Below, in pieces: positions 42,506 to 46,463 of a stretch of 64,000 bases of DNA (within the stretch, counting starts at the first letter, position 1; the number at the start of each line of letters is the position of its first letter). The notes below the pieces were generated by a model. The model saw nothing but the letters and a program-made list of their open reading frames with translations. It made no database searches and was not told the DNA's origin. This stretch comes from Pollutimonas sp. M17 (GTDB lineage Bacteria > Pseudomonadota > Gammaproteobacteria > Burkholderiales > Burkholderiaceae_B). Location of the stretch: positions 2,046,001 through 2,110,000 of the forward strand of contig NZ_CP107548.1 of NCBI RefSeq assembly GCF_025836975.1. The letters run 5' to 3'. The position numbers and the translations under genes were made by a program.

Positions 42506-43465
42506 TCAAGCACCCACCGCCTGTTCAAGCGCCAGCGCAAAATGAGCGGCCACATCGAAATCGGTTTGTTCGGTGATCTCGACGAAACAGGTCGGACTGG
42601 TGACGTTGATTTCAGTGACGTAATCGCCGATGACGTCCAGTCCCACCAGCAACAGGCCGCGATCATGCAGGCGCGGGCCGACGGCCTGTGCGATTTCAAG
42701 ATCGCGCGGAGTCAGCGGCTGGGCCACTCCCCTGCCGCCCGCCGCCAGGTTGCCGCGGGTCTCTCCGGCCAGCGGGATGCGCGCCAGGCAATAAGGCACG
42801 GGCTGCCCGGCGATAAGCAGGATGCGCTTGTCGCCATTGACGATCTCGGGAATATAGCGTTGCGCCATGATGGTGCGCGCCCCGTTGTCGGTGAGGGTTT
42901 CCAGTATGGCGCCGAGATTCGGCTCTGCTTCGCGCAGGCGGAATATTCCGGTGCCGCCCATGCCGTCCAGGGGCTTTACGATGACGTCGCGGTACTGGGC
43001 ATGGAAGGCGCGCAGCCGGGCCATGTCGCGCGTGACCAGTGTGGGCGATGTGAATTCCGCAAATTCCGTGATGGCCAGCTTCTCGGGGTGGTTGCGTATG
43101 GCCGCCCCGGAATTGAATACGCGGGCGCCCTGGGCCTGCGCGTACTCGAGCATGTGCGTGGCGTACACGTACTCCATGTCGAAGGGAGGATCCTTGCGCA
43201 TGAGAACCGCATCGAATTCGGACAGGACCGCATCGCGCCGCGGCGCCCTGTCGCTCCACCATGCATGGCCGTGCAAGTCGGCGCCCTCGACCAGGCCGAT
43301 GCCCGTGGCCGCCGCCTTGACCACCCCTTCGTCGATGAACAGGCCGCCCTGATAGGCCACGCTAAGCGTGTGGCCGCGGGCCGCAAGAGCCCTCATCATG
43401 GCCACGGATGAGTCTTTATACGCCTTGAGGGCGGGCAAGGGATCGATGATGAACAATACGTGCAT
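42506..43465 (-). CDS. gshB: Glutathione synthetase
   Basis: A 319-residue ATP-grasp enzyme joining gamma-glutamylcysteine and glycine. Segments MHVLFIIDPLPALKAYKDSSVAMMRAL, RKDPPFDMEYVYATHMLE, VIVKPLDGMGGTGIFRL (ATP loop), AGETRGNLAAGG and GLDVIGDYVTEINVTSPT all fit GshB. First gene of the gshB-EIIA-ptsH-ptsI group. Confidence 0.97.
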   Translation of the reverse strand: MHVLFIIDPLPALKAYKDSSVAMMRALAARGHTLSVAYQGGLFIDEGVVKAAATGIGLVEGADLHGHAWWSDRAPRRDAVLSEFDAVLMRKDPPFDMEYVYATHMLEYAQAQGARVFNSGAAIRNHPEKLAITEFAEFTSPTLVTRDMARLRAFHAQYRDVIVKPLDGMGGTGIFRLREAEPNLGAILETLTDNGARTIMAQRYIPEIVNGDKRILLIAGQPVPYCLARIPLAGETRGNLAAGGRGVAQPLTPRDLEIAQAVGPRLHDRGLLLVGLDVIGDYVTEINVTSPTCFVEITEQTDFDVAAHFALALEQAVGA

Positions 43466-43480
43466 AAGGCACCTGCGTGT

Positions 43481-43515
43481 ACCCCATCCGACGGGGTCGG
43501 CCCGTCGGATGGGGT
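43481..43515 (-). terminator. Strong hairpin after infC
   Basis: Perfect 15-bp stem (ACCCCATCCGACGGG, 43481-43495; complement 43501-43515) with a five-base loop, immediately downstream of the infC stop and before gshB. No T run. It probably ends the thrS-infC transcript. Confidence 0.65.
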
Positions 43516-43528
43516 GTGTGGAGCCGGG

Positions 43529-44080
43529 TCAGCCGGCGGATTCGCCCGCTTTGCCCGGAGCCGCCTTCTTGCGCGGGGCGAGAACCATGACCATCTGTCG
43601 GCCTTCCAGCTTCGGCATGGCCTCGACCTGGCAGAGTTCGACGAGGTCGTCGCGCACGCGTTCGAGTACACGCATGCCCAGTTCCTGGTGCGCCATTTCG
43701 CGGCCGCGGAAACGCAGGGTCACTTTGGCTTTGTCGCCTTCCTCGATGAAGCGGCGCAGGTTGCGCAGCTTGACCTGGTAGTCGCCTTCATCGGTTCCCG
43801 GCCGGAATTTGACTTCCTTGACCTGGATGATTTTTTGCTTGGCGCGAGCTTCTTGCTGGCGCTTCTGTTCTTGGTACTTGAATTTGCCGTAATCCATCAG
43901 GCGGCAAACCGGCGGCGCCGCATTGGGTGCGATTTCGACCAGATCGACTTCGTGCTGTTCTGACAAGTGGAGAGCTTCGGAGGTTTTGACCACTCCTAGT
44001 TGCTCGCCATCTACTCCAATAAGTCGCACCTCGGGGACGCGGATTTCACCATTGATGCGATGTGGTTTTTCGGTTGCGAT
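43529..44080 (-). CDS. infC: Translation initiation factor IF-3, AUC start codon
   Basis: A 183-residue factor that keeps ribosomal subunits apart and proofreads start codons. The conserved N-terminus [22 protein letters not shown] begins at an ATC codon (44078-44080) with AGGAG eight bases upstream (44089-44093); in-frame ATGs lie only upstream inside thrS. Non-AUG starts (AUU in E. coli, AUC in others) let IF-3 autoregulate. N- and C-domains complete ([42 protein letters not shown] in parts). 28 bases after thrS. Confidence 0.95.
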
Positions 44081-44108: not shown

Positions 44109-46055
44109 TCAGGCCTGTGCGGCTTCCCCGCCATTATGACGGGAATCGATTTCGTTTTGCAGGCTTGCGGCAAAGTCGGCCAGCGGCATGACACCCAGGT
44201 CGACGCCACCGCGCCCGCGCACCGCCACCTGGCCGGTTTCGCGTTCTTTCTCACCCACCACCAGAATGTACGGTATTTTTTGCATGCTGTGTTCACGGAT
44301 TTTACGGGTGATTTTTTCACCACGCAAATCGGAACTGGCTCTAAACCCTTGTTTTTTCAGGCTTAGGGCGATTTCGTCCGCATAAGAGGCCGATGCTTCG
44401 GAAATGCAGCACACCACCGCATGCTCGGGCGAGAGCCAGGCCGGCATGGCGCCGGCGTGATTCTCGATCAGCATGCCGATGAAACGCTCGAGCGAACCCA
44501 GGATGGCCCGGTGCAGCATGACGGGCGTCTTGCGCTGGTCGGCGGCGTCCACGTACTCGGCGCCCAGGCGCTGCGGCATGGAAAAGTCGACCTGTATCGT
44601 TCCGCACTGCCAGTGCCGCCCGATGGCGTCCTTCAGCGTGTATTCGACCTTGGGGCCGTAGAAGGCGCCCTCGCCGGGCGATACCTCGTACTCGCAGCCG
44701 GTGCGGTCCAGGCTTTCCATCAAGGCCTGTTCCGCCCTGTCCCAGACCTCGTCCGAGCCTATGCGTTTTTCGGGACGGGTCGCCACCTTGTATAGGATGT
44801 CGGTGAAGCCGAAGTCGGCATACACCTTCTGCAGCAAGGCCGTGAACGCGGCGCACTCGTCCTGCAACTGGTCTTCGGTACAGAAAATGTGGCCATCGTC
44901 CTGCGTAAAGCCGCGCACGCGCATCATGCCGTGCAGCGAGCCTGAAGGCTCGTTGCGGTGACACTGCCCGAATTCGCCATAGCGTATGGGCAGCTCGCGG
45001 TAGGAATGCAGGCCGGCATTGAAGATCTGCACATGACCCGGGCAGTTCATCGGCTTCAGGCCGTATGTGCGGTTCTCGGACTCGGTGGTGAACATGTTCT
45101 CGGCGTAGTTGTCCCAGTGGCCGGTCTTCTTCCACAGCGACAGATCCAGGATCTGCGGCGCCTTGACTTCCTGATAGCCGTTGTCCTGATAGACTTTCCG
45201 CATGTACTGCTCGACCTGCTGCCACAAGGTCCAGCCCTTGGGGTGCCAGAAGATCAGGCCCGGCGCCTCGTCCTGGAAGTGGAACAGGTCCAGTTCGCGG
45301 CCCAGCTTGCGGTGATCGCGCCGCTCGGCCTCTTCCAGCATGGTCAGGTAGGCGGACTGCTCTTCCTTGGTGGCCCAGGCCGTGCCGTAAATGCGCTGCA
45401 GCATCTCGTTCTTGCTGTCGCCGCGCCAATAGGCGCCGGCCACCTTCATCAGCTTGAACACCTTCAGCTTGCCCGTGGACGGCACATGAGGCCCCCGGCA
45501 CAAGTCGATGAAGTCGCCTTCGCGATACAGGCTGATCGGTTCATTGGACGGAATCGAGGCGATGATCTCGGCCTTGTAGTGCTCGCCTATGCCTTTGAAA
45601 TACGCCACGGCGTCGTCGCGCAGCCACTCTTCGCGGGTCACGGTCTCGTCCTTCTTCGCCAGTTCGGCCATTTTCTTCTCGATGGCTTCCAGGTCCTCGG
45701 GCGTGAAGGGCCTTTTGTAGGAGAAGTCGTAATAGAAGCCGTTTTCGATGACCGGGCCTATCGTGACCTGCGCGTCGGGAAACAGCGACTTGACGGCGTA
45801 GGCCAGCAAGTGGGCCGTGGAGTGCCGGATGAGGTCCAGGCCATCGGCGTCCTTGGCGGTGATGATGGCCAGCTGGCTGTCGCGGTCCATGACGAAACTG
45901 GTGTCGACCAGCCTGGGATCCGCGCCGTCGGTCGTCACGCGCCCGGCCAGCGCCGCCCGCCCCAGGCCGGTGCCTATGGAGTGCGCAACATCGCTGACGG
46001 AAACGGGACCGGGGAATTCGCGCTGCGAACCATCGGGCAAGGTGATCTGAACCAT
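44109..46055 (-). CDS. thrS: Threonyl-tRNA synthetase
   Basis: A 648-residue class II synthetase from ATG 46055 ([16 protein letters not shown]). Domains: TGS (1-62), editing domain with the [11 protein letters not shown] metal/catalytic histidines (about 75-225), catalytic core with [10 protein letters not shown] (zinc cysteine) and [30 protein letters not shown] (motif 2), motif 3 [21 protein letters not shown], and C-terminal anticodon domain. Its upstream leader encodes a threonine-rich peptide and a terminator. Confidence 0.97.
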
Positions 46056-46074
46056 GTGGACATCCTGAAAATGC

Positions 46075-46099
46075 AAAAACGCGGCCAGTGCCGCGTTTT
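46075..46099 (-). terminator. thrS leader attenuator terminator
   Basis: On the - strand, AAAACGCGGC - ACTG - GCCGCGTTTT followed by T, GCA and TTTT, 20 bases before the thrS start. A 10-bp perfect stem with U-rich tail inside the 5' leader, so it can stop transcription before thrS. Confidence 0.85.
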
Positions 46100-46135
46100 G
46101 GGTATGTTGATTTTGCTGGTCAGCTGAAAAACAGT

Positions 46136-46142
46136 ACGCGGC
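46136..46142 (-). promoter_or_regulatory. Antiterminator arm in the thrS leader
   Basis: GCCGCGT on the - strand, 5 bases after the leader-peptide stop, is the same sequence as the 3' arm of the terminator and can therefore pair with the terminator's 5' arm (ACGCGGC, 46090-46096). The two pairings exclude each other. Confidence 0.75.
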
Positions 46143-46147
46143 GACGT

Positions 46148-46183
46148 CTAGAAATGCCAGGTCGTAGTTCGCGTGGTGTTCAT
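46148..46183 (-). CDS. thrS leader peptide, threonine-rich (11 residues)
   Basis: A short ORF reading [11 protein letters not shown], five threonine codons in eleven (ACC, ACG, ACT, ACG, ACC), too short for ordinary gene finders. The ribosome site is weak (CCCAAG). It lies ~35 bases after the predicted start of transcription and directly before the antiterminator/terminator pair. Ribosome stalling at the Thr codons when charged tRNA-Thr is scarce would free the antiterminator and allow thrS transcription. This is inference from sequence and from the known thr, his and phe leaders. Confidence 0.8.
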
Positions 46184-46223
46184 GCTTGGGTCGGCTATCG
46201 TCAAATAAATAAATCGTTGCTTT

Positions 46224-46252
46224 AGTGTAACACCTGCGCGCCGTCCGGCAGC
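46224..46252 (-). promoter_or_regulatory. Promoter of thrS
   Basis: Extended -10 TGTTACACT on the - strand (hexamer TACACT at 46224-46229) with a poor -35 near 46247-46252. Predicted transcription start about 46217. Confidence 0.55.
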
Positions 46253-46305: not shown

Positions 46306-46341
46306 AAAAAAACCCGCAAAGCAATGCGCTGTGCGGGTTTT
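46306..46341 (-). terminator. Terminator of the tRNA-Val transcript
   Basis: AAACCCGCA (46310-46318) pairs with TGCGGGTTT (46332-46340); on the - strand it is followed by a run of T residues. It lies 46 bases after the tRNA and before the thrS promoter. Confidence 0.8.
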
Positions 46342-46386: not shown

Positions 46387-46463
46387 TGGTAGGCAGTACT
46401 GGATTCGAACCAGCGACCTCTACGATGTCAACGTAGCGCTCTAACCAACTGAGCTAACCGCCT
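46387..46463 (-). tRNA. tRNA-Val (anticodon GAC)
   Basis: A 77-nt tRNA on the - strand with encoded CCA. Acceptor AGGCGGT/ACTGCCT, D-arm GCTC...GAGC, anticodon stem CTACG/CGTAG with loop TTGACAT (GAC reads GUC/GUU), T-arm GCTGG-TTCGAAT-CCAGT, discriminator A. Folds as a complete cloverleaf. Confidence 0.97.

Follow-up and report, generated by a model that had tools for sequence, protein, structure and literature searches.

In E. coli, a leader-peptide attenuator (pheM) precedes the synthetase operon pheST, and the thrABC attenuator (thrL; Thr_leader in Rfam) controls biosynthesis genes and responds to Ile codons as well as to Thr codons. The E. coli thrS operator, whose stem-loops upstream of the gene resemble tRNA-Thr, is bound by ThrRS and acts on translation initiation, with neither a leader peptide nor a terminator switch. 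Autoregulation of E. coli thrS by ThrRS is also mentioned in PMC2965389. In Streptomyces lividans, the thrL-thrS locus encodes a leader peptide, MKRVRPFLETTPGFVPAR, with two Thr and a leaderless start, and termination there is unclear (PMC8079986); attenuators of trpS and leuS have been predicted in Streptomyces (PMC1262725). The first-pass annotation of the DNA studied here had known of no described ribosome-mediated thrS attenuator in betaproteobacteria. In the literature searched, the betaproteobacterial thrS leader was indeed not described, but the S. lividans thrS leader and the predicted Streptomyces attenuators qualify that statement, and a 2010 paper comparing attenuation across amino acid and aminoacyl-tRNA operons, which lay outside that search, may already contain the leader. 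Rfam searches returned no leader family in the window, with no Thr_leader or T-box match at E values up to 5, and no leader family in eight relatives, with no T-box match at E values up to 0.5.

In the window, the 64,000-nt stretch of DNA that was analyzed, thrS is preceded by a Thr-rich leader ORF and a terminator (Table 1). By its sequence features, the thrS leader is a real and widespread leader-peptide attenuator of the classical kind, with a predicted function. Sequence comparison and modeling together make it very probable that this leader acts as a ribosome-mediated transcription attenuator matching the expression of thrS, and probably also of infC, to the supply of threonyl-tRNA. The leader codons are ATG AAC ACC ACG CGA ACT ACG ACC TGG CAT TTC TAG. 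The positions that the first-pass annotation had given for the leader, the GCCGCGT motif, and the 10-bp terminator were all right, and the translation agrees with its count of five Thr codons.

Table 1. Features of the thrS leader locus in the window, ordered from upstream on the minus strand.
Feature	Position	Strand	Evidence or remark
tRNA-Val (anticodon GAC)	46387-46463	-	ARAGORN and Rfam tRNA match; upstream neighbor, outside the attenuator
Terminator of the tRNA-Val transcript	46309-46341	-	T run after a fold of -18.9 kcal/mol (z -5.0)
Extended -10 promoter element TGTTACACT	46224-46232	-	Read from the sequence
Leader ORF, 11 codons including five Thr	46148-46183	-	Translation; in-frame conservation in relatives
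Codon pair CGA-ACT (Arg-Thr), mid-leader	46166-46171	-	Near-invariant across relatives
Region 1 (ACGCG, within the leader ORF)	46170-46174	-	Pairs with CGCGU of region 2 (MFE fold; weak covariation support)
Region 2 (GCCGCGT), antiterminator strand	46136-46142	-	Pairing with region 3, fixed CGA spacing, covariation
Region 3 (AAAACGCGGC), terminator 5' arm, common to antiterminator and terminator	46090-46099	-	
Region 4, terminator 3' arm	46076-46085	-	Terminator scan and consensus fold of 28 relatives
thrS, threonyl-tRNA synthetase	44109-46055	-	ORF; 150 of 151 genomes of the family have homologues
infC (IF3)	43529-44080	-	About 30 nt 3' of thrS

The terminator is a 10-bp hairpin, AAAACGCGGC-ACTG-GCCGCGTTTT (46076-46099), with a U-rich tail that extends to 46068 in the terminator scan; the thrS Shine-Dalgarno sequence AGGA (46063-46066) and ATG (46055-46053) follow. 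TGTTACACTA recurs in many relatives at the position of the window's extended -10 element, and the sequence places the putative start of the leader transcript at about 46217. infC is probably carried on the same transcript as thrS, and its TAGGAG site and N-terminal sequence point to the rare codon ATC (44078-44080, minus strand) as its likely start. The region after infC (42506-43528) contains a glutathione synthetase-like gene (42506-43465), and not the usual rpmI-rplT order.

Among the 1219 short ORFs of the 64-kb window, this locus alone contained at least five Thr within eight codons, and dinucleotide-shuffled intergenic regions yielded such an ORF in 12 of 5000 cases. The sample of thrS upstream regions comprised 169 sequences, 80 from named loci and 89 from the window's family, in which the element was defined as an ORF of 6-35 codons with three or more Thr within five codons and a downstream terminator, CGA and ACT not being used. 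A Thr-run leader with a terminator was present in 95 of these 169 upstreams, mostly betaproteobacterial, but in just 1 of 317 regions taken as controls at these loci. The leader peptides include MTPRTTT... in Massilia, Roseateles, Cupriavidus, and Comamonas, MFFPPARTTTRNFRPMSR in Achromobacter, MFKRTTTTRTSR in Vogesella, and MIFRTTTEAGN in Azoarcus. The uniqueness of the leader within its own genome was assessed with a covariance model of 28 relatives, which gave one strong match, the thrS leader itself (E 1.6e-25); the next matches were the reverse strand of the same leader (E 0.005) and one at E 0.025. A fixed-pattern search of 300 genomes of the order matched 6 genomes, the pattern being too narrow.

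The first-pass annotation had considered that related genomes might keep the hairpin without the Thr codons. Within the family, a terminator without the leader was seen at 14 of the 89 loci, whereas the leader was kept together with the terminator at 58; the other 17 had neither. The promoter and terminator are present and the leader ORF is missing at, for example, L006, L131, L145, and L169, and these together with L099, L107, L122, and L151 keep the thrS terminator, most of them also the promoter, with no leader ORF. Some lineages have thus lost or replaced the leader element, which is therefore not indispensable. Two loci (L051 and L151) that carry tRNA-Val, the terminator, and thrS with no leader would suit the explanation that the hairpin simply terminates transcription from the upstream tRNA-Val and that the Thr-rich ORF is accidental. 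This explanation is scarcely credible: the window's tRNA-Val has its own terminator, so that a second one is unnecessary for the tRNA, a promoter lies in between, conservation of the leader far exceeds chance, and there is covariation of region 2 with the terminator. At loci of Oxalobacteraceae and Burkholderiaceae (among them L012, L024, L026, and L030), as many as three copies of tRNA-Val(GAC) lie a few tens of bases before the thrS leader with scant room for a promoter, and the tRNA and thrS may share one transcript at those loci.

Conservation of the leader core suggests that it is translated. At the second and third Thr codons, positions 1 and 2 carry about 1.4 and 0.87 bits but the third position only 0.24 and 0.37 bits, and indels adjoining the core are three bases long; this third-position freedom and the three-base indels form a coding signature. 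The first-pass annotation had named the weak ribosome site of the leader ORF as its main doubt, and it is borne out that the window has no Shine-Dalgarno sequence before the leader ATG, the 5' UTR there being A/U-rich. Leaders of the Burkholderiaceae type have a clear GAGAAAGG site about 10 nt 5' of the ATG.

The stretch GCCGCGT (46136-46142) is identical to a stretch of the hairpin's 3' arm (46079-46085), and therefore either can pair with ACGCGGC (46090-46096). Across lineages, the partner of region 2 is the terminator 5' arm (region 3) or, in some lineages, the arm plus the loop. Because regions 2 and 3 are nearly constant in the window's lineage, the covariation test was run between lineages, where the region 2/region 3 pairs include GCCGCGT/ACGCGGC, GCTAGTCG/CGGCTAGT, CTGAGCC/GGCTCAG, GTCGAGG/CCTCGAC, and TAGTCGCG/CGCGACTA. 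In the swap test, the native helices scored 18.4, whereas swapping the partners gave 16.95 ± 0.25 (z 5.8; 0 of 20,000 permutations), and the duplex energy was -13.97 kcal/mol versus -12.82 ± 0.22 kcal/mol. After redundancy removal at 70, 60, and 50% identity, the median z values were 5.0, 4.2, and 3.2, while control segments in the non-redundant swap tests gave -1.5 and 0.7. A single-locus test against shuffled spacers reached p < 0.05 at 38% of loci; this test was weak because it used the arm alone and because of the high GC content, and inclusion of the loop together with partner swapping was more informative. The 1:2 hairpin forms in the MFE structure of the window and 89% of its cells are paired in group A (28 relatives), but its swap z was only about -2, so that a protector role of the 1:2 hairpin is weakly supported by the sequences. 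The mutual exclusion of terminator and antiterminator that the first-pass annotation had proposed is thus substantiated by the shared partner and by the covariation. Its attenuator reading is also supported: relatives retain the Thr codons, the frame, the terminator, and the alternative pairing, and compensatory changes are seen from one lineage to another.

The RNAalifold consensus fold of group A contained the terminator as its sole helix; the 2:3 pairing escaped it because regions 2 and 3 barely vary within the group. This fold also bears on whether the leader RNA is a target of the ThrRS protein, in the manner of the E. coli operator, with the Thr codons secondary. Such binding has a precedent in the established autoregulation of E. 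coli thrS, and a protein could recognize the near-invariant CGAACT; however, the consensus of the 28 relatives offers no helix besides the terminator, a start codon and the Thr codons share the frame of the conserved sequence, and the conserved pairings are those of the terminator switch, with no structure across the thrS ribosome site. We consider control by such binding, with the Thr codons secondary, very improbable.

Spacing within the leader is consistent with attenuation by a ribosome. Region 2 begins at a median of 29 nt 3' of CGA (quartiles 29-34), whereas the distance from CGA to the terminator varies between 53 and 112 nt. A CGA-region 2 distance that is fixed while the other spacings vary, as seen in these sequences, is a requirement of ribosome-mediated attenuation. 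We modeled ribosome positions by footprint-constrained folding, with 17 loci tested. Before region 4 is made, the antiterminator probability in the window was 0.98 with the ribosome on Thr codons 1-3 after CGA, 0.00 with the ribosome at the stop codon, and 0.57 without a ribosome. The stop-codon state gave 0.00 at 17 of 17 loci and the Thr-stalled state was high at most; the Cupriavidus example (L008) and one Vogesella example (L044) barely switched in this model. With few exceptions, the ribosome states favored the terminator in the complete RNA at equilibrium, and the switch must therefore be kinetic. A kinetic decision is accepted for classical attenuators.

On the attenuator reading, RNA polymerase would initiate about 34 nt 5' of the leader ORF. 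When charged tRNA-Thr is plentiful, the ribosome would proceed to the leader stop codon and cover region 2, so that regions 3 and 4 would form the terminator before thrS. When charged tRNA-Thr is scarce, the ribosome would stall on the Thr codons after CGA and leave region 2 exposed; region 2 would then pair with region 3 ahead of the synthesis of region 4, and transcription would run on into thrS. The analysis shows the elements of this scheme, their conservation, the 2:3 covariation, the fixed spacing, and the switching of 2:3 with modeled ribosome position; we infer that the leader is translated, that ribosomes stall and polymerase reads through, and that 2:3 takes kinetic precedence.

The codon pair at the center of the leader is near-invariant. 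Of 89 distinct leaders, 86 have CGA as the Arg codon before the first Thr, and 77 have CGA followed by ACT. As background, CGA made up 3.0% of the Arg codons and ACT 7.8% of the Thr codons in 63 thrS genes, and the thrS of the window uses neither (CGA in 0 of 41 Arg codons, ACT in 0 of 31 Thr codons). I:A pairing decodes weakly (PMC5009743), its inefficiency is cited elsewhere (PMC10454642), and the codons of attenuators tend toward those most sensitive to loss of charging (PMC1183508). We tentatively suggest, as a possibility that we hold to be less probable than its opposite, that CGA-ACT is a dedicated sensitizing device: with an inosine-read CGA in the P site and a wobble-read ACU in the A site, the ribosome would be extra responsive to loss of charged tRNA-Thr, and the attenuator would be tuned by codon-pair kinetics rather than by the number of Thr codons alone. 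CGAACU could possibly also be read as an RNA signal. The 1:2 hairpin was not supported as the cause of the CGA invariance, the A of CGA being paired at a mean probability of 0.38 and swap support being weak.

A different account of the same codons is that the leader senses slow decoding in general, the ribosome pausing mainly at the near-invariant CGA, which an inosine tRNA-Arg reads, or at CGA-ACT, and Thr supply being only one input. CGA is stricter than any single Thr codon, some CGA leaders carry two Thr only (e.g., MTPRTSRQLFM in L034), and the weak, inefficient I:A decoding in the papers above would fit such a pause. Yet the downstream gene is thrS, most leaders have at least three close Thr, and trpE leaders of the same family have CGC and CGT before their regulatory codons; we regard general sensing of slow decoding as unlikely. 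Nor does the trpE comparison support the idea that betaproteobacterial attenuators in general use CGA as a slow codon. In the window's genome (L179) and in relatives (L178, L180, L182, and L186), trpE is preceded by a Trp leader peptide whose core is WRWWR, probably a Trp attenuator; the leader in the window's genome, MTATLYYCTTPRAYWRWWRLCSG, uses CGC/CGT, as do the trpE leaders of relatives. Among the relatives examined, no leader was convincingly identified upstream of ilvB.

If Thr-dependent attenuation of thrS is confirmed, the level of an essential enzyme would be set by the speed of the ribosome on threonine codons, and this control would replace the E. coli picture, in which ThrRS binds its own mRNA, in a large group that includes relatives of Bordetella, Achromobacter, Cupriavidus, Massilia, Comamonas, and Vogesella. 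Because infC closely adjoins thrS, the supply of an initiation factor may respond to this signal too. As a rare but near-invariant pair, CGA-ACT would offer an unusually clean natural case for separating codon-pair decoding speed from codon count in the sensitivity of an attenuator.

Compared with described systems, the thrS leader resembles E. coli pheST in its leader rich in the cognate amino acid, its terminator/antiterminator, and its putative control of a synthetase, but pheST uses Phe rather than Thr and its sequence is unrelated; we know of no near-invariant CGA-ACT pair in pheST. E. coli thrABC likewise senses Thr codons of a leader peptide, differing in its biosynthesis genes and its Ile codons. 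The thrL-thrS locus of S. lividans also places a leader peptide before thrS, whereas its two Thr and leaderless start set it apart (PMC8079986). The E. coli thrS operator shares the gene and the purpose of setting the ThrRS level, but it is bound by a protein and has no terminator switch. The thrS T-box of Firmicutes is associated with a terminator upstream of thrS that answers tRNA-Thr charging, as predicted for the leader of the window; the T-box RNA binds tRNA directly, and the window has no T-box match. Leader-peptide attenuation and its use at synthetase operons are thus already known, and the novel feature of the thrS leader is its CGA-ACT pair.
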